Source of the DNA: Sthenelais limicola | Taxonomy: Eukaryota; Annelida; Polychaeta; Phyllodocida; Sigalionidae | Assembly: GCA_942159475.1 (NCBI GenBank) | Contig: OW804098.1 | Coordinates: forward strand, 118,321,374-118,385,373 | Direction: 5' to 3' | DNA length: 64,000 nt | Part shown: in pieces, positions 3,515 through 63,100 of the stretch | Layout: each line of letters opens with the position of its first letter | Numbering within the stretch: the first letter of the stretch is position 1 | The notes under the pieces: model-generated | The model's input: only the letters and a program-made list of their open reading frames with translations | Database searches by the model: none | What the model was told of the DNA's origin: nothing | Made by a program: the position numbers and the translations under genes

Positions 3515-4556
3515 ACTCTCTTCGTTTCTCTTGCTGTTGTTGGCGTTGGACAACCCAATCGTGGGTCAGGCACAGCGGGTCGATACCCAGTTGTCTTATG
3601 ATATGGTCTTGGTGGTGGTCTTTGAGGGATCTGAGGAAACCAGTGAAGCGCATCATATCTCCACGTTGGAGGTGATCGAGCAATGACCTAGCTTTGAGGA
3701 ACTCAATCTGAGGGGCCTGCAGAAAGGATTGTGTTGGTTAGTTAGGATACAAAGTAAATGAGGCCAATACACACATTCACAAAAAGAACTTAGGAAGAAT
3801 TGAGTTTAAGAAGTTATAACTAATAAGAAACATTGGTCCGATATTGTAGTGCATCCACTATGAGAACGGTGGATGTCTTACCAATCCGAAATATATTTGT
3901 AAATCAAGCTTTTATTGCAGAGATGTGTTAATTATGTCACTTCACTATAATATATATATTTCTCTCCTCGCACCATGGCTTTGAACCACTGGGAAGCTTA
4001 GGGGAATACTAATTGTTGGACGACTTAAATTCATTTTCAAATGTCATAAATCATTGTATGTGAGAATAAGAATGTTATTTGACAAACATATGGAAACATG
4101 GATGTTTAGGATATTAGGTTTATTATGGCAAGTGGTGCTTTACCACCGCCTCCTACCTCTATGATCTGCTGGTCTAGGGATGATACAACCCAATACTTTC
4201 TGAGCGAGCTCATCAGTTGCGTCACATTTAAACATTCTTCCAACACAGGTCCAACACAGGTAAGAATTTGAGAGAATTCCGTATCTCTCAGTAGTGCATG
4301 ATCTGTAATGTACGTCAATTGTTGTTACAGTGTTATTTCTACGATATTGATGAACCATGACGTGACTCAAAGGACTGTATTGTGATTAGAGTCATTCATA
4401 ATGCATTCTGTTAATTCATAATATATACATACCAATAAGAACATTTAAAATAGAATAAAAAATGTAAGCAGTGAACTCACCATCGTATATGTCCATCAGG
4501 GTAGGGCTATTTGGCCTTTTGGCACTGCCCCCTCCCTCGACCCCACCAGTTGACAT
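3515..4556 (-). CDS. Gene C (partial): three CARD exons of a third paralogue
   Basis: Exon 1 is 4556-4481 (76 nt, starting MSTGGVEGGGSAKRPNSP), exon 2 is 4302-4157 (146 nt) and exon 3 is 3716-3515 (202 nt). Phases are 1,0,1 as in genes A and B, and all three exons are open. Together they encode a CARD with LMSSLRKYWVVSSLDQQIIE and SLLDHLQRGDMMRFTGFLRS. The exon 2 donor is GTAGGA, weaker than in the paralogues. I found no linker, NACHT or repeat exon between the left edge and 3515, so the gene either continues beyond the window or is a 5' remnant. The short introns (178 and 440 bp) differ from genes A and B. Confidence 0.65.
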
Positions 4557-15381: not shown

Positions 15382-17989
15382 TCAATAATATGTACAATAA
15401 ATAGGAAAGCCTTCAGCCATGTGTCTTATTGATAACATTATGAAGTACATTAGCGGGCTCCAATCGGTAGGTTCACGGATCTTCTCCCCATGTGGAGTAA
15501 ACCATATACATTTACTTAGCATCACCCTCTCCTTGATCTGGTTCCAAGGTGAGAAAAAAGACTGTGATACATCCATGACCACATGCATCCTCCATAACAC
15601 AACCGTTACCCCTTTTTTCTTGAGCTTCACAAGCCCATCTCGAAGGCGTTCTGAGACTAAGTCTGAAATAAGCAGATAACCATTAGATACCTCAACCGTC
15701 TTCAGATGTTCACTCTCCTGCAGCACATGTGAGGAGCTGATGGCTTGTAGCAGAGGCATTACATCCAGGCAACTACCTTGTGGATGTTCATCAACAGGAA
15801 TAGTTGGCTCACCAAGACACACATGTAAAATCTTACATGGTGGTATCTGTTGTAATGCAGCCCGATGTTGTTGTGAAGAGAATGCCTCTACAGGCAAAGT
15901 ATTAGATGATGAATGTTGTGTCTTATAATCCAAGATAAGGTTCAGCTCTTGATATTGGTCTTTTAGAGGTGCATGGGGAGAAACCTTCCACCGTTCTAGT
16001 GTATGAGCTGCATCACCAGGGCAGGAGGCTACCACTTTGTACTTTCTATCCTCCATCTGCTCTACTTGTCCGTACCTGTCTGTACCTGGAATCAGGAACC
16101 TGTTGAACTCTTCTCCCTCATGAGTGAACCATCTAAATTCATCTGGTTTCACCTTCACCCTCTCATTGATCTTGCTCCACTGCGAGGAAACTGACTGTCC
16201 TGCATTCACATGCAGATGTGTCGCATCTAACTCAACCCTTACCCCTTTTTTCTTCAGCTCTACCAGCCCTTCTCCAAGACTGTCTGAGACTAAGTCCAAA
16301 AGATGCAGATAACCATAAGATACCACAAACCTATCCAGATGTTTACTGTTCAGCAGCACATGTGAGGAGCTGATGGCTTGTAGCAGAGCCATTACATCCA
16401 GACATTTAGCTTGTGGATGTTCATCAACAGGAATAGTTGACTCACCAAGAAACACATGTAAAGTCCTACATGGTGGTATCTGTTGTAATACAGACTGATG
16501 TAGTTGTGAAGAGAATGCCTCTACAGGCAAAGTAAGAGATAATGAATGTTGTGTCTTATAATCCAAGATAAGGTTCAGCTCTTGATATTGGTCTTTTAGA
16601 GGTGCATGGGGAGAAACCTTCCACTGTTCTAGTGTATGAGCTGCATCACCAGGGCAGGAGGCTACCACTTTGTACTTTCTATCCTCCATCTGCTCTACTT
16701 GTCCGTACCTGTCTGTACCTGGAATCAGGAACCTATTGAATTCTTCTCCCTCATGAGTGAACCATCTACATGTATCTAGCATCACCCTCTCACTGATTTT
16801 GCCCCACAGTGAGGAAACTGACTGTGCTGCATTCACATACAGATGTGTATTATTTATCACAACATTAACACCTTTCATCCTGCACTCTACAAGTCCTTCT
16901 CGAAGGCTGTCTGAGACTAAGTCTGAAACATGCAGATAACCATTAGATACCATAACCATCTTCAGATATTTACTGCCCAGCAGTACATGTGAGGAGCTGA
17001 TGGCTTGTAGCAGCGGCATGGCATCCAGGCATTTACCTTGTGGATGTTCATCAACAAGAATAGTTGGCTCACCAAGACACACATGTAAAATCTTGCATAG
17101 TGGTATCTGTTTTAATGCAGACTGATGTTGCTTTGAAGAGAATGCCTCTACAGGCAAGGTAAGAGATGATGAATCCCTTGACTCATAAAACAATATCAGA
17201 CTTTGCTCTATTAAGGTTGCAAGAGGTGGGTAGCGACCAGCCCTCCATTGCCCTAGTACCTCTGCCATATCATCAGGACCAGTGGCTACTACAACACAGC
17301 TTGTAGCCCCTACAGACAATATCTTCCCATGTCGGTCTGTGCCAGGTATCTGGTATCTATTGCAAACTTCTCCATCAGGAGTGAACCAGCCACATCTTTT
17401 AAGCTTCAACCTTTCCTTGACCCTGTCCTTTAACGCAAGATTTGGCCCTTCTGTATCGACAACAATTTTTGTATCATGGAGTGTCATAGCAATGCCATTG
17501 CTCCCGCCATTTGTGAGTCCCTCCTCTTTTTTAACAGAGAGTAACTTAGATACTAACAAATAACCATGGTGCACATTCACTTTCCTCACACCTTTATCAT
17601 AAAGGTGTGTGTAAGTGGAGAATATTGACTGAACAATAGGCAATGCATCCCAACGCTTATCCTTTGGATGCATCTTAATTGGAATTTGTACCTGGTTGAG
17701 ATGTATGTCTAAAACTTCACATGGGGGTATTTTATGTAAGACTGCCAAATGTCCGTCTGTGGCAAATCTGTTCAATGATTCTGATTGATATTGATAACTG
17801 TGAAATGTATAATGCAACTGTACTTCCTGAGTAGTCATCCCATTATATGGACCTGACATCCACTGTTTGAAACCATTTGTCACATCATTTGGAGCACATG
17901 CTTGTATGCTACACAACTGGCCTTCCTGCATAAGGTGTATCCATCTGCATGTGTTGTGCACACTGTAGTATGCTCCGAATACGTCCTCC
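15382..17989 (-). CDS. Gene B exon 7: four copies of an unrecognised ~210-residue repeat
   Basis: The terminal exon follows TTGTTACAG, completes a Lys codon split across the intron, and runs 869 codons to the stop. It holds about four tandem units. Landmarks per unit are C-x-WFT-x-EGEEFNR, GTDRYG, CPGD followed by a W, PLKDQYQEL, a PVEAFSS block, IPPCKxLHVxLGE, PVDEHP, LLQAISSSHVL, GYLhhSDLVSD, LKKKGV and a closing W-x-KI-x-ERV. Units 3 and 4 repeat at 633 bp (211 residues) and are very similar; unit 1 is the most diverged. There is no leucine-rich, ankyrin, WD40 or TPR periodicity. The mixed pattern suggests an alpha/beta domain. Confidence 0.82.
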
Positions 17990-20900
17990 CTGTAACAACA
18001 ATTTTAATTTAAATAATGACAAATGCTGCTGAGTAGTAGGCATGTTTTATCGATTCATGTAAGTTGCTTCCTTAAACATACTTGGCGAGATAAATTTAAA
18101 CAAGCCATCTAAAAGTGAACAGAACCTCTCCTCTTTCATCCAAAATATCTTCTCTAGAAGTTCCAGAACATAGCAAACACTTTATTGGTGAGAAATTGGT
18201 GAGACGGATGCAAGCTGTATTTCTTATTGTAGTCTATTGCTGTTCTATATCTGAGATTTTTCATTTTTTTAACATTTAGAATGTAATATAAGAGTACATG
18301 CACGTTCATACTTATGGCACTATATCTCATTCTAATATTCTACTGGAGCTAAAGAATAAAAAAGTAATTATGCAATACTATCAGATGGTAATTCTCTTCA
18401 AACAGAAAGCATGGTAATAATCCGTCCAATTACACAATGAAATAAAAAAAAACATCTCCCACCAATATATCCCAGCTTACACCTCTCCCACTACATATGC
18501 ATTTGTGTGCAACATATAGCTGACCGGAAGCCACTCATGGCAGAATCGGTGTAGTTAAAGAGGAAGTTAATTACACCTAATGCCATCCCAAGGAGTACCA
18601 ATTTCACATGGATCTATGCATTACTCACATGACTTTTATGGGCTTGTTTCTCTGCTTTGACTGGGAGTTAATGAATATTCCAAAACCCATCGAGGAATTA
18701 TCTGAGGTAGGCATATGTTACATTAGCATAAATCAATACAAATAATGGACTATTTACCATCTTCCTAATGCATCTTGTATCAAAGTACTCTTTTCCAAAT
18801 GATAATGTCATGTACCTATTCTCAAACCCATTATCCTTTGGATATCAGCTCATAATTCTAACCATTATCTCTCAGATTCATGATATGGTATGAAGCAATG
18901 CACCAATCTGAAGTTGTAAAGCTAATGTCGGAATAATAAGATCCATATCAACATCCAAGCAGGAGAGGCGTTTAATTGACCCCAAAGATTTAGCTATTAT
19001 CAGTGATCGACACAGACACTTAAATTTATTCTCAACATGGTTGAATGAAACTTACCTGCTCTCCCCAAAGCAGCGCAATACATGGTTATGATGAACTTAC
19101 TTTGAGTAATGACATGGCATCATTTGACCTAACGTCTGTTGGAACACTGACTCCCGTACTTGCTCGTCTAGGACAGAGAGACATTCAGTAATGCGACGTC
19201 CAAGGTTCCCATCCTGTACCTCTGTTAATATTTTCCAGGCATCGTTTTTGTCTGAGTGATTACCGCTAAATATTTTGTGAATTTCTGTCACTAGTTTATT
19301 GAATTCCGGTAGCAATCCCTCATTTCTAATGGTTTGGGATTGTATGATCAGCAGCAGTGCATCACCTGATTCCAACTCAGCAGCAACTTTCTCAATTAGT
19401 TCATCATACATTATTCTGATCTTGTTGTAGATTGATTCTATTGAGAGCATTTCATCTCGTTTGGCCTGTGATATAAGCATCAGTCCTATGATGAACACAA
19501 ACTGAGAGACTTTTTCATCGTTTCTCTTAGTTTCCTTTGAGAGAGCCTGAAAGATGAGAAGTTGCAAATCCATCCAAACGTCTTTCGAGCAAAGGTACAT
19601 CAATATCAATTGCTGTATGTCTCCTCGGAGAGATATAACGCCCTCTGCTGCCCAAAAGTCAAGAAAGGACTTGTGATATGGCTGGTAAATCCATGTTTGG
19701 TTCATTGTGGTTGGGTCTTCATGGTCTTTCACCAGGAGCTGTACCAGAGGGAAATCCAGACATAGGCTAAACTTCTCAAACAACTTCTCTGTGATGCCAT
19801 CTTCCTCCTTGATGATATAGTACAACATCATTCGATGGAATGTTATGGCTGTGGCTTCGTTCCAAGGCTCTCTGCTACTGCTTAGATGTTCCCGTTTTGC
19901 TTCAAACCTCTCCATTTCATGGTAAAGGTCATAGGTGGTCATTTCCCCAATAGAACAGACTGTGATGGAATTCATCAGCACAAGGTGGCAGATAATCGTT
20001 AATCGTAAAGGGTTACTTAATATCGCTACAATCATTTCATTTTCAGAATATTTGTCATGGAAGTAACATTCTAACTCTTTGAGTCCAACATTGTCTTCAT
20101 GGTTTGCAATGTATTTCCTGATGTATTCAAGGCCTTGCATTACACTAAATCCATGAGTTTCAAGCTGCCTATCAAACAAGCTGTTATCAACCCCGGCTTT
20201 GTTGTCTCTTGAAGAAACAAGAATTAATGGATTCCCATCCTTACGGCTTTTTTCAACAAAGTCTTGTATTGACTTTCTGGCATTGTCGTCCACTAATTCA
20301 TCCATACCGTCTATCACAACTTTTAGCACTAATATCTCACTTTGTCTTGCTTCTTCATATAGCAGTTGACGATGTTTCCCCAAGATTTGCTCTTGAATTG
20401 CCCTCCAAACATCACCTTCCTTTATTTCTTTCGCTTTTAAGAAGACATGAAGGTCACTTGATGATATCTGAGTGTCCTTACAAGCCTCATGTACCATACT
20501 TCGCAGGAAAGTACTTTTCCCAGTCCCAGCTGGGCCTGACAAAAGTACAGATGTAGGAGCTGGTAATATCTCTGGTTCGGGAGAGGTATCGGATGAGTTT
20601 TCAGCTGTCTTGTGTCCAGCAAAGCTTTTGGATGTCTGTGGGTCAGTGATGATTCTTGATGTCTGAAACATTTTGAATTTCTGGTCTTCAGCAAGGCCTT
20701 CAGATATTGGGTAATCAGCAAAGATTTCAGTCTTTGCTATTTGATGTCTTTTGCTGGAAAAAGAATTTAGATGCAAGTGACTCATTTTATTCAGGGAATT
20801 GTAAATTACAATGTACCATACATATCTACAATATTGTACCAAACATTGTTACATTTCTTTCTGTGTACCAAATTTCTTTTTCCACCTTCTTTTCTCTGTA

Positions 20901-23900
20901 TCCTCTATGAATATAACAGTCCGGCCACTGTTGACAGAATCGTTGGAGAAGCATTGGCGATGAGATAGTCAATAAGAATTTTGTGAAAGTTTCATCAACT
21001 ACCCCTTCATAGACTTTTCATCACCACACCTTCAGCAAAACAAGCGATGACTGGTGATGAGTGGGCGCTGTGAAAATTGCATCGACAAGGGTATCGATGA
21101 ACAATAAACATGTTTGATATTTCCCGTTGATATGATTTTGCATTGTCAATGGAGGTAATGTCCATAGCAATACATTGGTGATGTGTAGTAGATGTGATTA
21201 GATATGTAAAAGCAAGAGAATTAGTTCTATAGTTGCCAATCTTATTCTGGTTGTCAATGCAAAGACAATGCAGCTACCAATAAGCCTCTTTATTGAAGTG
21301 CATCATCGGAAACTAAATCAACTGTGTATCAACTTTGCATCAGCTTGGTTTTGTCAACAGTGGCTGGCCTCTTATGTTGTGATTTTGGGATTTTAAAATT
21401 CTACAAGCATTTGGAGTCGAGAGAGTTATACACTTAACTAAAATTCAATTTTCACTTCTAAGGACAATTATGCAAGTAATAACATTTTAAATAGCACCAG
21501 TGTTCATCACTGAAGAAGACTGAAAAACATGTGCCTTTCTCTTATATCCAGTATATTCTCATCAGATAATTATGTGTGGTTTACCTTTTTGGTCCTTGTC
21601 TTCGGTTTATCAGAATGTCAACCTGGATGTAGTTTGCCCTAAGGTCGAACACTTGTGTTTGAAAGATATCCTGGACAGAAACCTGCATGATCTGTGTAGA
21701 TAGAAGCTTGTTATGGGCCTTAATTCCTGCATTGAAAGAAGGAAATGAGGGATTATATCACTTCAATGCCATCAGCAGTGGCCTGTTGCTCCATCTTCTC
21801 ACTAATCTTTTCTCCATGCACGTCAAATAGGGAAATAGTAGGCTTGAAAACAGAGCAATAGGCCCCTGTCACGGTTTGACTGAGAAATCAGTTTCATTAA
21901 ACGATATATTACCAACCAAGGTATATGTATTTGACACACCTCCTGAGGCCTGTTCTATAAGCTAAAGGCGGGAGCACACTAGCCGCGATGAGCCTCGCAA
22001 TAGGCTTTGCGACAGGCCTCTGCAATAGAAATGAAAATATTCGATCTTGGTGTGCACTGTATCGCAGACATGTGGGCGTCTGTGCAACAGCCTCTGCAAT
22101 AGCCTTTGCAACAGGCCTCACGATAAGAAATGCGTCGCCGTCTATCGCAGACAAATTAGACATGTTTAATATTTGTTTGCGATAAACTTTACATCGCAGA
22201 CGACACCATGCTATTGCGATTAATTGCTAAGCTTTGTTGCAAAGGTGTGGCGACGTTTGCAACAGGCCTTCCCGATAAGCCTCTGCAATAGCAAAACCTA
22301 TCGGGAAGGCCTGTTGCGAAGCCTATTGCGAGGCCTATTGCGGCTAGTGTGGCGCTGGCTTAAGGAAGACATTTTTTGTGGGAATTCTTCCACCTGATGG
22401 TAGTGAAAGCATCCTTTCTTTATGCTTTCCTCATGCAGGCCAGGAATCCACACATACAATCTTCCTTTCCTTAGCTTAGCCCCTATGGATTTAGGGCAAA
22501 GTATTCCAAAAGCAGGACCGTCGGAGCTAGAGCAATATACACAAATTTCTTACATGATTTCTGCTCTGTTAAGAAGTAAATAGCTACTGCTTTGACCTCT
22601 GCCCCAAAGCTATCAATCTTATTATTTCATGGTCTTATTAGTTCAACCCCTCTGGCTTCCATATAAATGAATTAATATAATAACTTTACTTTAAATGACT
22701 TTGATATAAAAAGTGTCAGAATATTTGCAGAGCTATGCATTTGACGCAACCAAATTACAATAATTATAATGTTGTGTGGAATGGACACAATAACTATTTC
22801 ATTTATCTGTCGTATCCTTGAAGCAATTTTTAAAAAATATATAGCCTTGCACCGTCTTTCAATCGAAATGGTTAGTATCTTAATAATTATAGCATAGACC
22901 TAATTTCGCAAAGATTTTGCTGTAAAAACAAATATGTAAATTTAATTCATAACTGTAAACTAATTCCTAAATATGTATCAATATATGCTGCTATAAACCA
23001 TAATAATATTATTATAATGAATGTATTTCTCCACTCACCTTCTTTTACTTTTTGTTGCCTCTGTTCTTTAGATGCGTTTTGGCGAAATTTCCTTGGTTCC
23101 GAAACAACTATAAAACACAATACATTGCCGATTAATCTTGGGCATAGTTGTGGAACCTCTTTAGTTAGATGAGTATGTTTGGTTGTATGAATTCATTGAT
23201 AGAAACAATAACTATGCTGTACCCATTGCACAAGTAGAACTACAGCGCTGGATGGGCAGCACATGTTTCAAATGCGTAATTCACCCCGGCGTATACCTAC
23301 ACTTGTCCCGTAGCTGGTCCCGCCGTAGGCAGGGGAGGTGTAATTGCTGGATGCGTAGCTCAGATCACACTACATAACAAGTACTGTATGGAAAAAAAAA
23401 GCTGTGAGGCCACCCGAGATTCGAGCCCTCAACTCCCGCTCTCAAGGCCAGCATGCTAACCACTACACCACAAATACATATTTATGCTACATATACCCGC
23501 TTTATTTTTACTATTTTGAAAGGTAACCCTGCAGTCTGCGACAAATCCCTGCTGAATGCACTATAAACAGCTATATTATACATTAAATATCAAATATCAA
23601 TAGTATCCTGTACATCGTTCATGATTTTGTATTAAATCATCAACAGTAGCAACAATATCTAAATCAGGCATGTAAGACTTGTAGAGAGTAGGTTGTAAGG
23701 AAAAAATATATTGATGAATTAGAAAGAATACTATGAGAAAGAGTAACTCTTTGGTTACTAGATGTTGTATTAAAAGAGGGGACAGGGTGATTATAACGGA
23801 CATGTTTAGAATCAATTTAAACTTGTGCAATGTTATGTTAAGGTTATGGACTTAAGTAACTTATGTTTTGATTAATTAATATGTGTAAAGTGTGTAAACA

Positions 23901-26887
23901 AGAACAGATCTTGATGTTAAAAACGTTCAGATAAGCAGCTAAATAAGTAAAATAATGTCTTACAAATACCAAACAAGAGCTTAACAAAGGAAGGCCTAGG
24001 TTCTCAAAGAAAGAGACAGACCTTTTTCCATATATTACATGTAACTGTAATACAGATAAGAAATACTTATATTATACATATATATGATTCTGCCAGTTTT
24101 AGTAGAACAGCAGAATTAATTGGGGGTTCCAAGCTTGTCCCGTTACATTGGAAATGGTAGCTCATGGCATATGCAATGTTTTCACACCTAGCTTTCTCAG
24201 TTATAAGCTTGTGTTACAAAGCCAAGGCAAAATACACTTGTTTTGATGGTGCGCCGCCATAGTTCTACGCTTTTTCAGCACAGTGTACATACAGGTCATG
24301 AACTAGGTAAAAACAAATTGGTTGCCATGACTACTATAAATAAATCACTAGTGACATATGCACTGTGCATAACTCACTCTAGATAGTTGCAATGAATATA
24401 TAATAAAGGTTGGAACGTATTCAACAATGAGCGTCAATGCCAATAGTCCTTCAACTAGATCAAGCCTTAAGCGGTTCGGCCACTGTCAACAAAATCATAG
24501 GTGATGCATTGGCAATGAGGTAGTCGATAAGAGTTTTGTGAAATTTATTGCATATTCTTTGCAAGGACTTGTCATCGGTATACTTTTGACAAAGGCCAGC
24601 AATGACCGGCAATGAGTGGGCGATGTGAAAATAGCATTGGTAAGGGTAGTGATGATCATCAAACGTCCATATAATATTCGGGTAGAGCAATTTCTACAAA
24701 AAGAGGTAGAAAAGCAACAAGGAATTTCCTAGCACTGTGTCATGTGAGAGTCCCTAGCAATAGGAGAGAGAGATCAGAGGGGGTGTGGGCGGAGGGGGGA
24801 AGCGGGAGAGTGAGGGAAAAGAGAGTTAGGTGAGGGGAGAGATTAGAGATCAGAGGCGTGATGCATTGGTGATGTCCAGTCGATGAGATTGCATATGTAA
24901 AAACAAGAAAATTAATTCTATAGTTGCTGATCTTTTTTTCCTTGTCGATGCCAAATCGATGCCACCACCGATAACCCTCCTCATCCATGTGCATAGCCGG
25001 CAATTACATCGTCTTTGCATCAACTTTGCATTGGCACCATTTCCTCGACATAACAGTGGCCAGACCGCTTCACTCTAATATGACCCTAAAAATTTCTCTT
25101 CCTCTTGGCATCAGTTTCTAGGTTTGGGTTTGTTTAGTTTTACGAAAGATATTTATCCAGTTATAAATTCATTGCATATATTTGATTTGACCTCTGAAGA
25201 AAAGAAATTCATTCTAATTGCACTTACACTCTCGATTGTTTTCTTGCTGCTGACGTCGCACAGCCCAATCATGGGTCAGGTGCTGTGGTTCAATACCCAG
25301 TTGTCTTATAATATGATCTTCATGGTGGTCCTTGAGGGATCTGAGAAAACCAACCAAGCGCTTCATATCTCCACAATTAAGATGTTTAAGAAGACTCCTT
25401 GCTTTGAGGTGGTCTTGGCTCTGTGCCTGGAATCGTTGTTGATTGTTATATTAAATAGTTGTGAATAATCTCTTTTAATAGACTGTATTTTGACTGCGTC
25501 ACATAAAAGAAGACATACAATTCATTGATTATAGCTGAAACATTTATACAATTAATATTTATACCATGTTTGTATGCTTGCATACTAACTAAGGGCTAAA
25601 AGTAGGTGATGATGGCCTCAATCTTATACTAAGTCACTATATTTAACTAACCCCTTCAGGGGAAGTAAACTCTTTTGTTTATTAACTTGTATTTAATTCT
25701 TTATCCTTAATATTAGATACTCTAAACTCTACTAGATTATAGTTCTACCATCACCTGTACGGTAACAGCTAGAACACCTGGTAATTATTCTAGAAGCTCC
25801 CATTTGTGATGTTTTCCAGGTAAAATGAGTCATGCGTGGCAAAATTGCTATTTTTCAAAGTGTTTCTTTGTTGAAACGTTTTTTGCATGCTTGCTAATAA
25901 AGAAGTATTGCTTTAACTTTTTATTCATGAATGACAAAATATAGAAGCACTTAATAGACTGCTTACCACTATAATATTGGTATCCACTTGATCTCACCTT
26001 CTCACCTTTGCAGTCATAATGATGTCTCTGCTTTTTTTTGTTTGCGACTATGACTCACTTTACTGTAAGACATTTTGTAAATGCTCTCCACATTATTATA
26101 TACATGTACTATTTTGACAAATAAAGTATTTTCATATCATATCAATGAGGATTGATAATTGAGGCACACTATTGTGGACACATACCTCTATGGTCTCCTC
26201 GTCAAGGTCAGACACAACATCATACTGTTTAAGTGAGCTCATGAGTGATGTCACCTGTAATATCTTTTCTAAAGTAGGTCTGCGGTCCTTCAGAATCTCA
26301 GCGAATTTTGTCTCTACTACTAGCTCATGGTCTGTAATATAGAGCAAGCATTAGTAAACTTATTAAGGGCTACTTTTAACAGGATTGCCAGAGCAAGAAT
26401 AAGAACTGATTGGAGAAGGTGAGTAGAATTATGTATGTTATTCTCATCAGAAAACATATGAAGAATTGTGAAATGGTACAATTGCATGTGTTAAGGGAAA
26501 GGTCAGATCAAATGTTAAGACACAGATACTGATGAGGACATGAATCCATTCCAAAACATGTACCGGATGTTTTAAAATATAGGTTATCGAATCAAATCAA
26601 ATGTATGAAACTGAACATATATGTAGTGGAAACATACACAAACTATGATAAATTTGGATGAGCTGAAGAATGGAGCTACCATTCTTCAACTCTTCTCAAC
26701 ATGATTATAAACCTCCATTGTTCCATTTGGTATAATAAGTCAATGATAAATGTAAATGTATTTATCAAACTATTAATGCAGACTACTGCTATATTTAAGG
26801 CACAAACTCACCATGGTACATGTCAATCAGGCTTGTGCCCTCCAGTCTAGAGCCGCTGCCCCATCCTGGTGCTCCCCCTGTTGCCAT
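15382..26887 (-). CDS. Gene B: CARD-NACHT-tandem-repeat protein (NLR-like), complete model
   Basis: Seven exons join in frame: 26887-26812, 26331-26186, 25426-25228, 23107-23039, 21726-21585, 20753-19101 and 17989-15382. They total 4893 nt, or 1630 codons plus stop. Every junction is AG/GT and phases match (1,0,1,1,2,2). Order of parts: short Gly/Ser-rich leader, CARD (about residues 26-125), charged linker, pre-NACHT segment, NACHT ATPase (P-loop near 284-292, Walker B near 355-364), then about four ~210-residue repeats (762-1630). This is the layout of an NLR receptor with the usual C-terminal repeats replaced by an unrecognised repeat. A cytosolic sensor or scaffold role is inferred from the CARD and NACHT families. 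AATAAA signals on the minus strand lie at 15042-15055, about 330 bp past the stop. The start is chosen because the same first exon occurs in two paralogues. The exon chain was read by eye. Confidence 0.8.
19101..20753 (-). CDS. Gene B exon 6: NACHT NTPase domain
   Basis: A single 1653-nt exon runs from a TTTTTCCAG acceptor to a GTAAGT donor. It encodes a STAND-class NACHT ATPase. The P-loop is GPAGTGKST. Walker B is LKVVIDGMDEL, with the D-G-x-D-E form typical of NACHT. A sensor-1-like LILVSSRD follows, and the C-terminal part is helical. The family binds ATP or GTP and oligomerises to build signalling platforms. The P-loop Lys and acidic Walker B residues are present, so the domain looks catalytically competent. 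Reading through the donor would end after one lysine, so splicing into the repeat exon is needed for the full protein; an unspliced form would be CARD-NACHT only. Confidence 0.88.
20921..21372. mobile_element. TIR miniature element (GGCCACTGTTGACA ends)
   Basis: The left end CCGGCCACTGTTGACAGAAT is inverted at TTTTGTCAACAGTGGCTGG. It lies in gene B intron 5, just outside the NACHT exon. A second family member is at 24469-25071. Confidence 0.7.
21585..21726 (-). CDS. Gene B exon 5: pre-NACHT segment
   Basis: The exon opens after CTTTCAATGCAG and closes at AAAAAG before GTAAAC (142 nt, phase 1 in, phase 2 out). It is the only piece seen that bridges the phase-1 end of exon 4 and the phase-2 start of the NACHT exon. 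It encodes a segment with VQDIFQTQVFDLRANYIQVD, then a basic RRQGPK. A short block before the P-loop is usual in NACHT proteins, but I do not recognise a named domain. Confidence 0.6.
21948..22480. mobile_element. Host TIR-type element carrying the nested insertion
   Basis: The left part GGCCTGTTCTATAAGCTAA and the right part with TCCTTTCCTTAGCTTAG resemble the inverted ends of the element at 41103-41450. It lies in gene B intron 4 and is interrupted by the 395-bp insertion. Confidence 0.5.
21966..22360. mobile_element. TIR element with TAA duplication (PIF/Harbinger-like), nested
   Basis: The ends AGGCGGGAGCACACTAGCCG and AGCCAGCGCCACACTAGCCG (as read inward) are inverted, and TAA flanks both sides (21963-21965 and 22361-22363). 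A 3-bp TWA duplication is typical of PIF/Harbinger. The interior is packed with GCAATAGCC and AGGCCTGTTGC motifs in both orientations. Removing it restores CTATAAGCTAAGGAAG, which matches another element at 41110. Confidence 0.72.
23039..23107 (-). CDS. Gene B exon 4: short charged linker
   Basis: This 69-nt exon lies between TTTTATAG and GTGAGTGG (phase 1 in, phase 1 out). It encodes a basic, glutamine-rich stretch that includes SKEQRQQKVKEG. The matching exon of gene A (57300-57377) encodes SSRELRQQEIAKGERD, so both length class and R-Q-Q core are shared. It is probably a flexible or helical spacer between CARD and NACHT. Because it is short, its support comes mainly from phase agreement and the paralogue. 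Confidence 0.6.
23403..23477 (-). ncRNA. tRNA-like Pol III unit (degenerate tRNA or SINE head)
   Basis: On the minus strand, TGGTGTAGTGGTTAGCATG fits an A box/D arm and GGGCTCGAATCTC fits a B box/T arm at normal spacing. A run of nine T follows within a few bases, as a Pol III terminator. The acceptor and anticodon stems pair poorly, so it is probably a tRNA-derived pseudogene or SINE. It lies in gene B intron 3. Confidence 0.45.
24469..25071. mobile_element. TIR element (AAGCGGTTCGGCCACTGT ends)
   Basis: The 18-nt ends AAGCGGTTCGGCCACTGT and ACAGTGGCCAGACCGCTT are inverted with two mismatches. The interior shares ATGAGGTAGTCGATAAGAGT and other strings with 20921-21372. It lies in gene B intron 3, close to the second CARD exon. 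Confidence 0.7.
25228..25426 (-). CDS. Gene B exon 3: second half of CARD
   Basis: The exon starts after a GATTCCAG acceptor and ends GAGT before GTAAGTG (199 nt, phase 0 in, phase 1 out). It encodes ARSLLKHLNCGD, VGFLRSLKDHHEDHIIRQLG and a Gln/Arg-rich tail. The R-x-LL-x-hL...F-x2-FL-x-SL...H-hh-x-L pattern is the classic helix 4-6 signature of CARDs. It is one codon shorter than the 202-nt exon of genes A and C. No in-frame stop is present. Confidence 0.78.
25805..26092. mobile_element. TIR element, AAAATGAGTCATAAGTCG family, in gene B intron 2
   Basis: It starts TGATGTTTTCCAGGTAAAAT followed by GAGTCATGCG, and ends near GCGACTATGACTCACTTTAC. It sits between the two CARD exons of gene B. 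Related, more decayed pieces start near 8894, 30555 and 35760. Confidence 0.55.
26186..26887 (-). CDS. Gene B exons 1-2: start codon and first half of CARD
   Basis: Exon 1 (26887-26812, 76 nt) starts ATG and encodes about 25 residues beginning MATGGAPGWGSG, ending at a GTGAGT donor in phase 1. Exon 2 (26331-26186, 146 nt) follows a TATTACAG acceptor and ends at GTATGT in phase 0. It holds the amphipathic helices around KFAEILKDRRPTLEKIL and LMSSLKQYDVVSDLDEETIE. The pattern of an L-x3-L core, a short helix and then D-x2-E fits the first half of a CARD. Exon lengths equal those of genes A and C. Confidence 0.75.
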
Positions 26888-46722: not shown

Positions 46723-46822
46723 TTTTGCTTAAGTCAAGTAAGCGATTGGTAGTACGATGAGTAGGTTTGTTGTTAGGCCTGCAAATATATGAGTGACATG
46801 ATATAGTTTATAAGGTTTTTAT

Positions 46823-48685: not shown

Positions 48686-49034
48686 TGACTATTTTTCGGT
48701 TACAATTCCTTTTTGGTATGTCCGATGGTGTCCTCAATTGTTCACAACGTTCTCGACTGTTAGATTATTGTCACACTCCAATATTTAAGTTTGTGGCATA
48801 TTCCAGTAGTTAGTCCTGGGCAATGTTGTAGCTCACCTACTCACATACGTCGGCGACGAGCGGCGCCATATTCGATAACTAACTGGGTATATCTGAGTAT
48901 ATTTGGTATCGCATTGATTTAAAGTATCAGTTCTGTTATGTTAAACTGCATATTGAAGCTGATTTTTGTCTTAAATGTGGGTTATTTGAGAGGATTGGTG
49001 AAAGCGAATTATACATTTTCTGAAAATCTGACCC

Positions 49035-52790: not shown

Positions 52791-55700
52791 TTATAATATC
52801 TGACACTTTACACACATTAGATCAGGTGGTGCACTAACTTCCTTGCCATTAGGAGAGAACCACTTACATGTTTTTAGTGACACCCTCTTATCAATGTTCT
52901 TACACAGGGAGGAATGTGTTTCTGCCACATCCTTAACAAGTTTTGCCCATTGTAACTTGATATCTATTCCCTTCTTTTTAATCTCCAACAGTTTCATCTT
53001 AACACAGTCTGACAGCAGATCAGATACCAAAATATAACCATTTATGACATATGCTTGGGTAATATGCTTGGCACAGAGTAAGTCATGTGAGGAGCACATC
53101 ACCTGTAATACAGGCATTACACTCAAATGCCTGTCCTCATTAAGTATGTCGGTGGGAATCTTGGCCTCAGCAAGAACAAGCACTAAAGTCTTGCATGGAG
53201 GAATGTTGTGTAAAATATTCTCATAGTGTTGTAAGGAGAATTTCTCCACAGGAAGAGTAGCAGTGGATGAATCTCCTGCCTCAGTCCTCAGGTACAACCT
53301 GAGCTCTTCATGCTGAGTGTGTAGTGGTGCATGAGGACCTGACCTCCACTGATGTAAGACCTCTGCCATATCACTCGGACACTGGGCTCTAATCACATAG
53401 CTAGTAGGCCCAATTAGCTCTACATGTCCATACCGGTCTGTACCCTGTATGTGGTATCGGTTGAACTCGTCTCCCTCTAGGGTAAACCACCTACATTTAT
53501 TTAGTACAAATCTTGCATTTATATTCTCCCACAGGGAGGAATCTGATGCTGTCACATCCATGACAATCTTTGTCCTTTCTAAAATAGGTTTTATTCCTGC
53601 CCTTTTAATCTCAACCGGCTTCTTCTTCATACAGTCTGACAGCAGTTCAGATACCAAGAGGTGACCATTTAGAATACGGAGCCGGCTAACATGCTTGCTA
53701 CGCAACACCTCATGTGAAGAGCAGATAGCATGTACAAAAGGCAGTACACTCAAATGTCTCTTCTCCCTAAGTATGTCACTGGGAATCTTGGCCTCAGCAA
53801 GATCCAGCGCTAAAGTCTTGCATGGAGGAATGTGATGTAAAATGTTCTCATAGTGCTGTAAGGAGAATTTCTCCGCAGGAAGAGTAGCAGTGGATGAATC
53901 TCCTGCCTCAGTCATCAGCTCCAACCTGAGCTCCTTATACAGAGTGTCTAGTGGTGCATGAGGACCCGACCTCCACTGATGTAAGACCTCTGCCATATCA
54001 CCCGGACACTGGGCTCTAATCTCATAGCTAGTAGGCCCAGTTGGCTCTACATATCCATACCTGTCTGTATGCTGTATGTGGTATCGGTTGAACTCTTCTC
54101 CCTCTGGGGTAAACCACCTACATTTTTTTAGTGCAAATCTTGCATTTATATTCTCCCACAGGGCGGAACCTGTTGCTGTCACATCCATGACAATCTTTGT
54201 CCTTTCTAAAATAGGTTTTATTCCTTCCCTTTTAATCTCAACCGGCTTCTTCTTTATACAGTCTGACAGCAGTTCAGATACCAAGAGGTGACCATTTAGA
54301 ATACGGAGGCGGCTAACATGCTTGCTACGCAACACCTCATGTGAAGAGCAGATAGCATGTACAAAAGGCAGTACACTCATATGGCACTTCTCACTATGTA
54401 TGTCACTGGGAATCTTGGCCTCAGCAAGATCCAGCGCTAAAGTCTTGCATGGAGGAATGTGATGTAAAATGTTCTCATAGTGCTGTAAGGAGAATTTCTC
54501 CACAGGAAGAGTAGCAGTGGATGAATCTCCTGCCTCAGTCATCAGCTCCAACCTGAGCTCCTTATACAAAGTGTTTAGTGGTGCATGAGGACCCAACCTC
54601 CACTGATGTAAGACCTCTGCCATATCACCTGGACACTGGGCTCTAATCACATAGCTAGTAGGCCCAATTAGCTTTACATGTCCATACCGGTCTGTCCCTT
54701 GTATGTGGTATCGGTTGAACTCTTCCCCCTCTGGGGTAAACCATCTACATTCATTTTGTGCAAATCTTGCATTTATATTCTCCCACAGGGAGGATTCTGA
54801 TGCTGTCACATCCATGACAATCTTTGTCCATTGTAAAGTAGGTTTTATTCCTTCCCTTTTAATCTCAACTGGCTCGTTCTTCATACGGTCTGACAGCAGT
54901 TCAGATACTAAGAGGTAACCATTTAGAATACCGAGTTGGCTCACATGCTTGCTATGCAACACCTCATGTGAAGAGCAGAGAGCATGTAATAAAGGTATTA
55001 CACTCATATGGCACTTCTCACTAGGTATGTCACTGGGAATCTTGGCCTCAGCAAGATCCAGCGCTAAAGTCTTGCATGGAGGAATGTTGTGTAAAATGGT
55101 CTCATAGTGTTGTAAAGAGAATCTCTCTACAGGAAAAGTAGCAGTGGACGAATCTCCTACCTCAGTCATCAGCTCCAACCTGAGCTCCTCATGCTGAGTG
55201 TGTAGTGGTGCATGAGGACCTGACCTCCACTGATGTAAGACCTCTGCCATATCACCCGGACACTGGGCTCTAATCACATAGCTAGTAGGCCCAATTAGCT
55301 TTACATGTCCATACCGGTCTGTACCCTGTATGTGGTATCGGTTGAACTCTTCCCCCTCTGGGGTAAACCATCTACATTCATTTTGTGCAAATCTTGCATT
55401 TATATTCTCCCACAGGGAGGAATTTGATGCTGTCACATCCATGACAATCTTTGTCCTTTCTAAAATAGGTTTTATTCCTTCCCTTTTAATCTCAACTAGC
55501 TTCTTCTTCATACGGTCTGACAGCAGTTCAGATACCAACAGGAAACCATGTACAATACCGAGTTTGCTCACATGCTTGCTATGCAACACCTCATGTGAAG
55601 AGCAGATAGCATGTACAAAAGGCAGTACACTCAAATGGCTCTCCTCACTAAGTATGTCACTGGGAATCTTGGCCTCAGCAAGATCCAGCGCTAAAGTCTT

Positions 55701-57169
55701 GCATGGAGGGATGTGATGTAAAATGTTCTCATAGTCCTGTAAGGAGAATTTCTCCGCAGGAAGAGTAGCAGTGGATGAATCTCCTACCTCAGTCATCAGG
55801 GACAACCTGAGCAACTCATACAGAGTGTTAAGTGGTGCATGAGGGCCTGACCTCCACAGCTGTAAGACTTCCGCCATATCACCCGGACACTGGGCTCTAA
55901 TCTCACAGCTAGTAGGCCCAATTAGCTCTACATATCCATACCTGTCTGTACCCTCTATGTGGTATCGGTTGAACTCTTCTCCCTCTGGGGTAAACCAACT
56001 ACATATATTTAGTGCAAACGTTGCATTCATATTCTCCCACAGGGCGGAACCTGTTGCTGTCACATCCATGACAATCTTTGTCCCATATAAATTAGGTTTT
56101 ATTCCTTCCTTTTTAATCTCAACCAGCTTCTTCTTCATACAGTCTGACAGCAGTTCAGATACCAAGAGGTGACCATGTAGAATACTGAGTTGGCTGACAT
56201 GCTTGCTACACAACACCTCATGTGAAGAGCAGATAGCATGCAACAAAGGCATTACACTCGTATGGCTCTTCTCACTAAGCTTGTCAATGGGAATCTTGGC
56301 CTCACCAAGAACCAGCCGTAAAACCTTGCATTGAGGAATGTGGTGTAAAATGTTTTCATATTGCTTTAAGGAGAATTTCTCTTCAAGAAGAGTAGCAGTG
56401 GATGAATCTCCTCCCTCACTCATTAGCTTCAAAGTGAGTTTCTCATGCTGAGTGTCTAGTGGTGTATGAGGACCTGACCTCCACTGCAGTAAGACCTCTG
56501 CCATATCACCTGGACACTGGGCTCTAATCATATAGCTTGTAGGCCCAGTTGGCTCTACATATCCAGATCTGTCTGTACCTTGTATGTGGTATTTCCTGAA
56601 CTCTTCTCCCTCTAGAGTAAACCACCTAGGTTCAATTAGTGCAAACCTTGCATTTATATTCTCCCACAGGGAGGTGTCCATTGCTGTCACATCCATGACA
56701 ATCTTTGTCCATTGTAAAATAGGTTTTATTCCTTCCCTTTTAATCTCAACCAGCTTCTTCTTCATACGGTCTGACCGCAGTTCAGATACCAACAGGTAAC
56801 CATGTACAATACCGAGCTGGCTCACATGCTTGCTACGCAACACCTCATGTAAAGAGCAGATAGCATTTACAAAAGGCAGTACACTGAAATGGCTCTTCTC
56901 ACTAAGTATGTCACTGGGAATCTTGGCCTCAGCAAGAACCAGCTGTAAAATCTTGCATTGTGGAATGTTGTGTAAAATGCTTTCATATTGCTTTAAGGAG
57001 AATTTCTCTACAGGAAGAGTAAGAGTGGATGAATCTCCTGCCTCAGTCATCAGCTCCAACCTGAGCTCCTCATGCTGAGTGTCTAGTGGTGCATGAGGAC
57101 CTGATCTCCACTGATGTAAAACCTCTGCCATATCACCCGGACACTGTGCTCTAATCTTGTCTTCCTCGT
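52791..57169 (-). CDS. Gene A exon 5: seven tandem 209-residue repeats
   Basis: A 4379-nt terminal exon follows CATTTTTAG. It encodes seven units at a constant 627-bp spacing; equivalent positions fall at 53449, 54076, 54703, 55330, 55957 and 56584. Each unit carries CRWFTPEGEEFNRYHIQGTD, then RAQCPGDMAEVLHQWRSGPH, PVEKFSLQHYENILHHIP, an LAEAKIPSD block, HAICSSHEVL, GHLLVSELLSD, EIKREGIKP, TKIVMDVTA and LWENINARF. The first unit enters at the CPGDM motif and the last ends in a diverged cap with CKWFSPNGKE. The fold is unknown to me. The constant spacing with scattered substitutions implies recent duplication or gene conversion. Confidence 0.85.
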
Positions 57170-60100
57170 CTAAAAATGAGAGAAAGGAAGAAAATCATGA
57201 GGACTAAGCAATTCTAGTTCAAGTTTGAACTTTTTTTTTTGAATACACATTGTGGGTATCTTGTACTAGTAGTATTGAAAGTAGAACTGTGGGACCCACC
57301 TAAGACATCTCGCTCACCTTTGGCTATCTCCTGTTGCCTCAGCTCTCTAGAAGAGTCTCCGACATTCCTGCTGATACCTAAATTTAAATTAAATGAATCA
57401 ATTGCATTGCATGGCTCGAACCTCATGAATTGTCATAGCTGGTATATATTTTTTTTTTCTATTTTTTTTTATTTCAATTAAAGGCCAGACATTTAACAAC
57501 GAACAATTCAAATGTAAAGACGTATTGTCCTCCATGGACATACTTCATACGTTGCCTAATATATATGCTTATAGCACAATTAAAATGGCACTTTTATAGA
57601 TTATAGTGTAAAGCTTTGAATCATTGATGTTTGTAAATTTCCTATTTTGTTGCTATTTTGTGTTGTTACTATGTCATATATTATTCTGTTTTCCACTGTC
57701 CTTAAAAATTCACTTTTACGACCAATTGACAAAATCGGTATATATCGAAATATTGAGATCATAATGATACATTTGGCAGATTAACGTCTGTCATGGTTTC
57801 ATAGTTTGCTAGATAACATACATATGAATGTGTAAATGCAGGAAAGTCTAAAATCTGTGTATGTTCAATATCTACAGCAACAAAAATGTAGGTTACCATT
57901 TGATCAAATATATAATTGTTTCCATTTCATTTAATGTTCAATGTAGGTTTTCCTGTTTTTCTTATATTCAATGAAACGTCTTTATTTGCTTTAAATAATT
58001 AGATAGTTTAAATACTGACACATAAAGAATTTACTTAATTAGCTTGGGAGAGCAGTGGCTGGACTTTCTCTGCTAGAAAAACACATGTAAACGAGCTTTG
58101 TTAACATGGCAGTTTGCCCAGTGTGTAAACAGATGCATAAATGGCCTGGCAAGCTTTCTTGTTGTTATCAGAATAGGCCATGGAGCTAGCAATTTCTAAG
58201 GGAAGTAGTGCTGCCGACTGGAAATTATATATTGATGATATTGATTTGGAAGAAAACCCTGGCGGCGAAGGGGATGACTCCCATGCTATTAAACCAGAAC
58301 CTATGGGTGTTGGCTTGCAGGGTGGGACATCAGGGACTACGGCTATCATGCAATTACGCCTCTCCCCTAAGAAGTTGGATGAACTGCGACATGAATTGTC
58401 ATTGTTAAAGGGCCCAGGACGTGCATCCATTAGACAGATCAGAGGCCTCTGGGAAGTGATTGCTCACTGTGTTAAAGTAGTTCACAGTGGTAGAACTTTT
58501 TCTCAACGCCTTATCTCCCTGCTAAAAGAAAAGAGCATGACAGTCATTCACTGGATTTCATCTGGATTTAGATTGGTGGTGGAACTATGCCAGTACTTTC
58601 AACGGTCAAGCCTCTATCATACGCTACAATTTCGGCAATGGTCCGTGTTTTTACACTGACGCTTCTACATATGGCTTTGAGGCTTGGTGTGATGATCATT
58701 AGTTGGCTGGATGGTTCAATAGCAGTGACTTACCTGTCTTCCCAGACTTGCATGACCACTGGTTGAATTACAGATTTCCACCTGAGAGCTCCTTCAATAA
58801 TATCAATCTTCGGTCTTGCTGTCAACAGATGGGCCCCGCTGTTTAGTGTGCTAAACCGACAATATGCAGGCTATATCAATGGTAAACAAAGGTTTTGGAA
58901 CAAACCCCTTCTGTATGGACTTGTTGAGGAGCCTCTTTTGGACATCTGTCTCACATTACGATTTTGTTACAGCCAAATACGTCAGGGGGTTGTACAATAA
59001 TCTGGCAGATACCCTTTCTCGCTTGACGGTGACCAACATATGTGTAGAACTCTCAGCCTTGCCTTTGTGCTGTGTGCCTAATACCCCTTTATCGGACTGA
59101 TTGTTGATTCTCTTTACAGTGGTGCAGGATCTAGACACTCAGTTGTCTGCTACTATTCCGTCAGCCTATGCTCCAACTATGCAAGCTGTCAGGAAAAGTC
59201 AGTGGAAAAAGTGTTTTTGGCTTCTGCCCTATGATTGAGGCTGTCCCCATTTGTGCCTCTGACATGACTGTCGCCAGGTACTTGATCTACCTGTCTCAAA
59301 CTTGCAGCTACTCCACCATTAACAATTACCTGTCTGGCAATGATCAAAACTTCAGAGAGGTCTATTTAATTGAGCTCACCCTAGCTGGTTTGGGTTGTCT
59401 GCTAGGTACTGCTACGAAGCAGTAGATACCTCTTTCACTTGATCAGCTGATGAGAATATATATTCCTTGCTACCTTCGGACCCATTGGTAAAAGCAACTT
59501 GCTGCCTGTGTCTCTGACTGATGCAGGTCCCTGCCTACTGAGAAGTGATATTGAATTTGCTACTGACCATATCATTGTGATTGTTAGGTCTTCTAAGACC
59601 ATTAAACATAAGGACAGGTTGTTGACCTTACCAGTCTTTCCTACTAATAACTGGATTTTTATGCTTTTTGAAGGTTCAAGGAGCATGTGTCACTTTACCT
59701 TGCCCCAGATGATAGCCCTTTATTTCTCAAACCTTGTCGTGGCCCAGTCATGTATCGGGAGCTTCTAGACTTCTTAAAATCTTCTCTGTCACTCATTGGT
59801 CTTAACCCGAAGGATACTGGGCAACATTCTCTATGCAGAAGTAGAGCAACGCACCTTCACAGTATTGCAGTGCCATTGGACGATATCAGGACCATTGGAG
59901 ACTGGCTTTACTACACAGTTCTCTTATACCTCGCTACACCTTGGGAGAGGAAAACAACACTTGAACGATCTGTGGCCGCTTCTTTCAGTGAGATTTAATT
60001 GGAAGGTTTTGGCCGTTGAGATCGCTGGTGCCCCGCCACTCCCATGTGAGAGTTTATTTATTCCACACATCAGAAGAAGGCTATGTGTAATATAAATGGC

Positions 60101-63100
60101 ACATATATATTAATATAGTCGGCGCCACTGCTGCTACCCTCAGTCCCAGGTCCCAGCTATATATCCATTCATTCACCTCCGCACATACCCAGTGCAACTG
60201 TTAGTTTTTTTCCTTTTTTAATAAACCCTAGGGCGGTCGAGATCGCCAGCGCCTTGCCACTCCTGTGTCAGAGTCAGAATCAGAAGACGACTATATTTAA
60301 TGTTCAATGCACGTTTTCCTGTTTTTCTTATATTCAATGAAATGCCTTTATTAGCTTTAAATAATTAGATAGTTTAAATACTGACACCTAAAGAATTTAC
60401 TTAACTAGGTAGGGAGCTGTGCCTGGAACTTTCTCTGCTAGAAAAACTATGTAAACCAGTGTATATCAGTGAGATTTCCTTTTTTTTTTTTCTTTCTTTC
60501 TTTCTTTCTTTCTTTCTGTCAATGTCCTTCTATAGTTTAAATTATAGAGCAAATTACATCTGCTTGCAGACCCAAGACCTATCACCAATGGCTTCTTGTA
60601 TATTGTATCGTGTACATCACCAAATAATCATATCCTACTCAAGTTAGGATCCAAAAGCTGCGCCATTGCTGTATTACACCCCTGATATATTCACTTTTGC
60701 AACATTCATTAGGAAACATATTCATCAAATAGGGGTCACCATTTATTTGTAACCCATAGTGTGTCCGGACGGTTCTGAAATCCTCCTTTTATTGAAGGAG
60801 TTACACCCTTTGATCTGACCTTAATACATGGCAATAAAGATTACAACAACAACAACAACACTTTCACTTACACTCTCTACGCTTTTCTAGATGCTTTTGA
60901 TGTTGTTCAACCCATGATTGGGTTAGGCACTGTGGGTCGATACCCAGTTTTCTTATAATATGGTCTTCGCGGTGGTCCTTGAGGGATCTGAGGAAACCAG
61001 TGAAGCGGTGTACATCTCCACATTGGAGGTGATCGAGCAATTTCCTAGCGTTATGGAAACTGATGACATTTTCCTGAAGGAAATATAACATAGTTCATTA
61101 ATTCAGATACAATGCAAGTGAGGCCAGTTACTATGTTGTTTTTTTTACCTTTTTAAAAATATCCAATCAAATTTAATAAACCACCTTCTCTAAATAGTGT
61201 TACAAAAGAATTAACTAGTGATGTATTGACTTTCCTTAGATATGAAAGAACTGTGTCTGTGTTAGAAATTATAAGTATCTTTTTTAATTCAAATTTCTGC
61301 AATCATAACTTCACGTTCAAGATATTCAGATGATTATTACATATGTGTGCAATTTCGTATGCTATTCGGACCAACCTACTTTTGCCGACTAGATTGACCT
61401 AGAATCATATCGTCTGCTTTGACCCGGTTTAAAATGTATTTTGACGACAATATGCAAGATTTTGTATTGCCCCAGGTTGCAAAGAATATAATTTGTCAAA
61501 ATGAAGCATTTAATCGGGAATTTGAACGTTTACCGGCACGGCCATGTGTTCACTAGCTTAGAGTTTGTTGACATTGTTTGTGAACGGTCTCATGACATCC
61601 GCATGATGGCTTCCACTCAGTTCAAGACCGATGTCCGCAAACTCGATGGAAACCAAGGTGAAATGTCATTAAAATAGTCTTCTCTTGTTGATTATGTATG
61701 AAATAAATATTAAATAGCCCTCTGTCGATGTAAAATCGATCTCGACGTCGGGTCAAATCGCACTCCACCCCTTCGGGGTGTCGGGCGATTTGACCCTCCG
61801 TCTCGATTAATTTGACATCGACATCGGGCTATTTAATATAAGAATGTCAGCTAATATAACAATTTAATCAATTAAACAGATTTGAATAACATCAGTTAAT
61901 CTCAATTAAAAATAGGAAAAGAAGTTTATACTAAAACAAGAGATAAACAAGATACAGAAAAAATACAGAAAAGCTCATTTGTGTATGTAATCCCAACTAA
62001 GAACATCTTGAATGAGTTAATTTGTGTGCTAGTGGTCGTGAAACGTTACACACACAACAAGCCATTTATTCAATTCATCACTTAATACTTTGTCAATTTA
62101 CTAAAGTAACTCATATCTTAATGGCCAATAGAAGTTATATGGCGTTGTGAGTATTTTCGAATAATTAAAAAGGAGTTAGTTGGTTTATTTAAGGCATTCT
62201 GTGAATGCGTTACGGGTATCACCGTCCCACCTGTGATGGTCAAGTGCAATAGACTAGCACCGCCACTTACCTCTATGATCTGCTGGTCTAGGATTGTTAA
62301 AACGTCATACTTTTTGAGCGAGCTCATCAGTTGCGTCACATTTAAACATTCATCCAACACAGGTCCACAGTCTATCAGAATTTGAGAGAATTCCGTCTCT
62401 CTCAGTAGTACATGATCTGTAATGTAAGTTAATTGTGCTTGAGTCCGTCTTTGAGAGACATATATTATATAGGGAAATGAAATATATAAACTATGTTGGG
62501 ACAATTTCATTTATTATTACACACGTGAGCAGTTAGAAAGGTGCAGTTTGGGGGTCCAGTTCGGTTGATCCGAATCGTTAACGTGAACAGTTTGGCCAAA
62601 GACGCAATCTCATTGGCGGAGTGTAGGCCAGATGACGTCGTCCCGACCGCATAACTAGGCCTACAAATTGCAGTGAATCAAGCCTTCTCGAGCTAAACTA
62701 TAGGCTAAACAAGTTAAATTTACTTTTTAATATCCAAATAGAGTGTGTAATAAATAGCAAATGGCACTCTGTTTGGGTTCAAACTGATCTCGACCCCTCA
62801 GAAAACGGGAACTCACCCCTTTGGAGTTCGTCCCGTTTTCTGAGGGGTCTCGATCAGTTTGAACCCTCCATCGTACCATTTGCTATAATTACCCAGAGTA
62901 TCTTCAAAATGTAATATTTATCTAAAGATGAAACTTCAGGTCTGTAAATGCGTTCATGAAATCATAGAAGTCGGACAGAAATATTCGGTTAAATAAAGTT
63001 TCTAGCATAGATATGTTCCAGCTACCTTCAGGATTTATATATACTTTATTTCAATCATTCTGAACATTTTACCATAGGAATAATGGTATGTCACCAGGCT

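Follow-up and report, generated by a model that had tools for sequence, protein, structure and literature searches.

How an animal without antibodies diversifies its intracellular recognition is the question raised by this locus, and annelid NLRs have been little described. The locus lies in the genome of Sthenelais limicola (1.13 Gb, 161 contigs), in a stretch of 64,000 nucleotides (C5:118321374-118385373), here called the window. A preliminary description had read one of its genes, gene 1, as an NLR-like receptor in which a repeat of a new kind, here called X, stands in place of leucine-rich repeats (LRRs). Genome searches scored only the best candidates, and all copy counts given below are therefore lower bounds.

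Gene 1 (minus strand, 26887-15382) consists of seven exons that join in frame into a coding sequence of 4893 nt (1630 amino acids), in the predicted order CARD, linker, NACHT, and four X units of ~208 residues. The features of the gene, in window coordinates, were as follows.

26812..26887, minus strand: exon 1, with the start codon (MATGG...) and the donor GTGAGT, kept in the tandem paralog
26186..26331, minus strand: exon 2, first half of the CARD; the PF00619 match crosses into exon 3, and the splice sites are conserved
25228..25426, minus strand: exon 3, second half of the CARD, with 18 related exons in the genome among the matches listed
23039..23107, minus strand: exon 4, linker, in phase, with splice sites kept in the paralog and a counterpart exon in gene 2
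21585..21726, minus strand: exon 5, linker preceding the NACHT, in phase, with splice sites kept in the paralog
19101..20753, minus strand: exon 6, NACHT (PF05729) and the following helical/winged-helix region
15382..17989, minus strand: exon 7, four X units and the stop codon, an open frame with the acceptor TTGTTGTTACAG and HMM units
17296..17907, minus strand: X unit 1, HMM match, residues 33-236 of the open reading frame (ORF)
16672..17292, minus strand: X unit 2, HMM match, ORF residues 238-444
16039..16668, minus strand: X unit 3, HMM match, ORF residues 446-655
15475..16035, minus strand: X unit 4, HMM match, ORF residues 657-843

Each of the six introns begins with GT and ends with AG. 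A tandem paralog at C5:118300732-118289576, whose start lies ~47 kb from that of gene 1, preserves all twelve splice sites. The seven exons of this paralog are also joined in frame, with a stop at the end only. Identity between the two genes is 92-95% over exons 1 to 6 with 30-base flanks and 85% over the aligned part of exon 7, and the number of X units differs, with four in gene 1 and six in the paralog. The dN/dS ratio of the pair was 0.16 in both the CARD exons and the linker and 0.28 in the NACHT exon. Because exon 7 holds an open frame of 873 amino acids, dN/dS against the paralog is low in these exons, and the same exon phases recur in gene 2 (described below), gene 1 is more than a chance assembly of frames. 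These results confirmed gene 1 as a joined seven-exon CARD-NACHT-X4 gene with predicted splicing. The preliminary description was right both that seven exons join in phase and that exon 7 carries four tandem repeats of ~210 residues, as the HMM also gave four units there.

Both domains of the proposed CARD-NACHT chassis exceeded their Pfam cut-offs. The CARD (PF00619) of gene 1 scored 24.6 bits against a cut-off of 23.9 over residues 37-113, a match that spans the splice junction after residue 74, and the NACHT (PF05729) scored 44.4 bits against 26.7. In 12 aligned NACHT exons, residues G73, G76, G78, K79, D148, G149, D151, E152, R182, P248, and H360 were invariant; we take these to represent the P-loop (G73-K79), the Walker B motif (DGxDE, D148-E152), a sensor, and the winged-helix His. 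The closest PDB entries to the NACHT profile were NLRP5 (E 4.1e-5) and NLRP14. The NACHT exon of gene 1 had at least 79 matches in its own genome, and a protein database searched with the NACHT gave no relative among 7995 candidates scored. A PADLOC match of this exon to mad8 (1.4e-6 over 30 P-loop residues) was judged to be chance or a generic P-loop. Gene 1 thus has an N-terminal death-fold signaling domain, as does gene 2 (CARD, 27.0 bits), and a NACHT whose P-loop and Walker B motif are intact. The C-terminal LRRs of an NLR in the strict sense were not detected, since none of 66 X units matched a Pfam LRR family at an E of ≤0.1, and gene 1 is therefore NLR-like in the broad sense only.

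Next, we examined whether X belongs to a known family. Searches of Pfam, NCBIfam, PADLOC, PDB sequences, and the protein database gave no credible match, which bears out the earlier claim that the repeat resembles no known motif. The protein database yielded no relative among 7996 and 1886 candidates scored; it is seemingly poor in animal genes, so this absence does not confine X to this worm. Several weak hits were rejected. PF10370 (0.058, exon 7 frame), PF02992 (6.5e-4 in 1 of 66 X units), and Maf1 (0.016 in 2 of 66) were judged to be chance matches, the best NCBIfam hit (0.0017 in 2 of 66 units) was not credible, and the PADLOC match "Effector" on exon 7 (0.0027) was judged chance or generic. 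WD, ANK, and TPR repeats were likewise absent from the Pfam matches of the 66 units at an E of ≤0.1, except for one unit that matched the WDR3 propeller at 0.059. In the literature covered, mainly titles and abstracts and mostly outside subscription papers, neither such a module nor an annelid CARD-NACHT protein carrying it was found.

X could instead be a very diverged LRR, in which case gene 1 would be an ordinary CARD-NACHT-LRR receptor that escapes the models. The best PDB profile match of X was F-box/LRR protein 2, which aligned in strand register with a nonsignificant E of 0.72 (66 units, A2) and 0.078 (A4, 24 more diverse units), and the best LRR-like window of the unit, columns 111-121, reads as LxxLxLxxNxL-like. 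Against this reading stand the Pfam result on the 66 units, an hhalign probability of 0.1 between X and 20 classical LRR rows of the same genome, a p of 0.06 for the LRR consensus in a four-window permutation test, and an i-E of 10 for the single stretch underlying the match at 0.078. We regard this reading as a substantial possibility that falls short of being probable. The claim that the repeat stands in place of LRRs may hold: no LRR model matched, and neither hhalign nor the consensus test spoke for LRRs. To judge from its strand pattern and its weak F-box/LRR match, X may equally be a far-diverged LRR-like solenoid.

The distribution of X was then determined across the genome. An HMM built from the window's X units gave 71 hits, counting part-units, spread over 14 frames of the fetched loci (four in gene 1 and seven in gene 2); 66 of these were retained as full units, and 61 units in eight arrays were used for the selection tests on arrays. 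In many paralogs X occurs alone, its exon coding for about 210-390 residues, and these single-copy exons give the natural bounds of the module, with a start near YxLPGTxRWGHV and an end near WxxPDG. The copies per gene ranged from 1 to about 13, and arrays contained 4 to 13 units; units of the same array had a mean identity of 48% for gene 1 and 76% for gene 2. Two genome searches (at least 98 and at least 48 matches), when merged, gave at least 51 X clusters. Among the matches listed, 42 of the 51 were preceded on their own strand by a NACHT exon at most 20 kb away, one had a NACHT exon downstream, none had one on the opposite strand, and eight had no listed NACHT. A 43rd cluster with an upstream NACHT, that of gene 2, was spurious, since that NACHT lies beyond the CARD exons of gene 2 itself. 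Conversely, 42 to 43 of the 79 listed NACHT exons were followed by X, which is a lower bound. By sequence, this genome has a large NACHT family in which X is the predicted usual tail domain, mostly single and in tandem in a subset. It also contains genes in which a NACHT and, after it, classical LRRs share a single exon (loci L062, L063, L001, L004, and L005). The repeat had been described as a new module of one receptor; it is indeed uncatalogued, but it recurs across a NACHT family and on a CARD without NACHT. By sequence, then, this is a whole family whose tail module is uncatalogued and diversifying, rather than one odd gene.

To examine selection on X, we compared gene 1 with its tandem paralog. 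With one-to-one pairing, dN/dS was 0.90 for X unit 1 and 0.76 for unit 2, and the nonsynonymous excess over the NACHT of the same pair was significant for both (Fisher, 0.0015 and 0.0044, respectively). In the eight arrays, parsimony counts gave an overall dN/dS ratio of about 0.72; at a p of <0.01, 71 of 208 columns were conserved and 11 were fast, where about 2 would be expected, and the column patterns of different arrays correlated at 0.15 to 0.62. A likelihood test on the 208 columns found beta>alpha in 14 and beta<alpha in 33 (p<0.05); columns 43, 117, 149, 174, and 175 survived at a q of <0.05, with column 43 outside the strands. Ten of the 14 positive columns lie in four segments in which strictly hydrophobic positions (70/72/74, 114/116, 145/147, and 171/173) alternate with variable ones. 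When columns between two hydrophobic ones were chosen by a rule blind to rate, 5 of 12 were positive, compared with 9 of 194 others (Fisher, 4e-4). The secondary-structure propensity guess for X is noisy and was used only for the hydrophobic alternation. Site-specific diversifying selection was thus found in the tandem repeats, to be read together with the results from single-copy genes.

Every strand has one hydrophobic and one variable face, which would favor an open-faced sheet, as in a solenoid or a two-layer fold, over a central sheet buried on both sides. An open-faced beta-alpha structure is probable for each X, and a far-diverged LRR-like solenoid is possible. In plant NLRs, the fast sites of the LRRs fall at the exposed x of L-x-L-x-x strands while the switch is conserved. 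The X family resembles them in its fast exposed strand positions and conserved switch, and the fit of the fast positions to this scheme adds to the case for a diverged LRR; it differs from them in that the Pfam, hhalign, and consensus tests showed no homology of X to LRRs.

In ten genes with a single X, dN/dS was higher for X than for the NACHT in 45 of 45 pairs, which share genes and are not independent, with means of 0.99 for X and 0.27 for the NACHT. The two pairs with the lowest dS gave X ratios of 2.93 (62N/7S, p 0.006) and 2.92 (64N/7S, p 0.004), against 0.29 and 0.26 for the NACHT. Across five disjoint pairs, X as a whole was not above neutral (454N/151S, p 0.88), and a per-column test on the ten genes, which are few sequences, found 7 of 213 columns at a p of <0.05 and none of the 20 sandwiched columns. 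A set of outward positions was taken from the array results and then tested on the single-copy genes; it omits column 32, which could not be mapped, and the hot columns outside strands (132, and FEL columns 43, 50, 156, and 200). The pN/pS ratio was 1.76 at outward positions and 0.81 at the rest (Fisher, 2.4e-4), with a p of 0.055 for the outward set against neutrality, and it fell to 0.59 and 0.64 when the set was shifted by one column either way. Entropy was 1.33 at outward, 0.27 at inward, and 0.52 at the remaining positions, and the column correlation in the single-copy analysis was 0.37 (rho), compared with -0.14 to 0.15 at neighboring offsets. In the youngest pairs (L052/L066, L047/L067, and others), dS was lower for X than for the NACHT, for example 0.048 versus 0.133, which suggests that X exons have been exchanged between genes. 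Such exchange, whether among units or among genes, can bias selection tests of this kind.

The high ratios might also reflect relaxation, with X weakly constrained or partly decaying. Whole-unit dN/dS of about 0.6-0.9 within arrays and about 1 among single-copy genes would fit, as would two broken relatives, probably decaying copies, with two TGA codons in a NACHT match (C8:9123426-9124325) and one TAG codon in an X unit (C3:142078006-142078626). However, open frames of 873, 1467, 2110, and 2688 residues persist, 71 of the 208 array columns are conserved, the inward strand positions are nearly fixed, and the excess is position specific, disappearing one column to either side. Relaxation is an unlikely explanation of the pattern.

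A conserved switch, a tail that changes fast on one face, and a variable number of units are what is expected of a recognition module. Gene 1 thus reads, with good probability, as a cytoplasmic NLR-like switch with a diversifying X recognition module, and its fast outward face suggests the part that recognizes invaders. The sensor role earlier attributed to the repeat is likely from the selection pattern on X, with fast outward positions beside a conserved NACHT. In this receptor, the CARD would provide signal output, the NACHT and helical region nucleotide-controlled oligomerization, and the X array recognition. At rest, the NACHT would hold ADP and the protein would be monomeric. A ligand would make contact with one or several X modules on their variable face, the NACHT would exchange its ADP for ATP, the NACHTs would oligomerize, and the clustered CARDs would recruit a partner with a CARD, for example a caspase. 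This order of ligand binding, nucleotide exchange, oligomerization, and CARD recruitment is general to NLRs. Tandem duplication and loss would alter the number of X units.

The window contains a second gene of this kind. Gene 2 (minus strand, 63822-52791) joins in frame over 4863 nt into a CARD, a linker, and seven X units, with exon phases identical to those of gene 1.

63747..63822, minus strand: exon 1
62271..62416, minus strand: exon 2, first half of the CARD (27.0 bits, cut-off 23.9)
60872..61073, minus strand: exon 3, second half of the CARD
57318..57377, minus strand: exon 4, linker
52791..57169, minus strand: exon 5, seven X units straight after the linker
52833..57155, minus strand: X units 1 to 7, HMM matches at ORF residues 14-221, 223-430, 432-639, 641-848, 850-1057, 1059-1266, and 1268-1454

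The first X unit of gene 2 lacks the opening strand region. No NACHT was found in the gene: among the 79 listed matches to the NACHT exon of gene 1, the only one in the window was gene 1 itself, and the minus strand has no frame of ≥150 residues between exons 3 and 4. As far as can be seen from the predicted frames, gene 2 is a NACHT-free CARD-X7 gene, and without a NACHT it is not classed among the NLR or NACHT STAND receptors. Its product could be a NACHT-free partner, a decoy, or a scaffold clustered by ligand.

The same gene would also suit a different role for X, as a module for oligomerization, autoinhibition, or spacing whose fast change reflects coevolution among X units. Such a role fits the NACHT-free CARD-X7 arrangement and the very different array lengths (4 to 13). 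In contrast, single-copy X is common and has the same variable positions, and self-assembly surfaces are usually conserved. We consider this role unlikely.

A bolder form of the recognition reading, which we offer tentatively and hold rather doubtful, is that X is new and that its arrays form a shuffled, multisite recognition strip on two chassis, CARD-NACHT-X and CARD-X7. Each of the 1 to about 13 units would show its own fast-evolving strand face, and the number of units would change quickly (gene 1, 4; tandem paralog, 6; gene 2, 7). CARD-X7 could fire by ligand-driven CARD clustering alone. If true, an animal would have, on the basis of an uncatalogued module, its own counterpart to the fungal NLRs that shuffle repeats.

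The preferred recognition reading was compared with known systems. NLRC-type receptors of animals (CARD-NACHT-LRR), annelids among them, share with the gene 1 family a CARD, a NACHT, and a C-terminal recognition region, but the gene 1 family has no detectable LRR and carries 1 to about 13 X copies instead. The NLR-C genes of zebrafish form a large, recently expanded NACHT family with an added C-terminal B30.2 tail. The X family is similarly an expanded animal NACHT family with a tail domain, although X is not B30.2/SPRY by Pfam. Fungal NLRs of the Podospora HET-D/E/R type, with highly conserved WD, ANK, or TPR repeats, resemble the X arrays in having tandem repeats of varying number behind a NACHT, whereas the X unit has ~208 residues and is not WD, ANK, or TPR by Pfam, the host is an animal, and a CARD is present. 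Positive selection at exposed positions, a further shared feature, is reported for the fungal repeats in PMC4986451, and the identity within the arrays of genes 1 and 2 is below the 85% criterion of that study. For annelids, a tubeworm study (PMC8476170) gives NLR counts of 20, 68, and 2 in three species and none in the others compared; in S. limicola, a single NACHT exon has at least 79 matches. In the X family, single, tandem, and NACHT-free forms stand side by side with their variable positions mapped, so that simple constructs could test ligand recognition, the effect of unit number, and whether the nucleotide switch is needed.

Further members of the cluster were observed on the minus strand. 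CARD exons 3 and 2 at positions 3522-3704 and 4157-4303 of the window belong to a third gene, and no NACHT or X was found from this gene to the tandem paralog among the matches listed from the genome searches. Just to the right of the window, at C5:118392505-118397816, another member has CARD exons 3 and 2 lying upstream of a partial NACHT match (43%, residues 47-285). An Rfam scan of the window gave no match. A LINE-type element at 42178-48688 (minus strand) has endonuclease and reverse transcriptase frames, and at the expected place of its ORF1 lies a 621-amino-acid frame ending in NADAR (PF08719, 6.7e-17).
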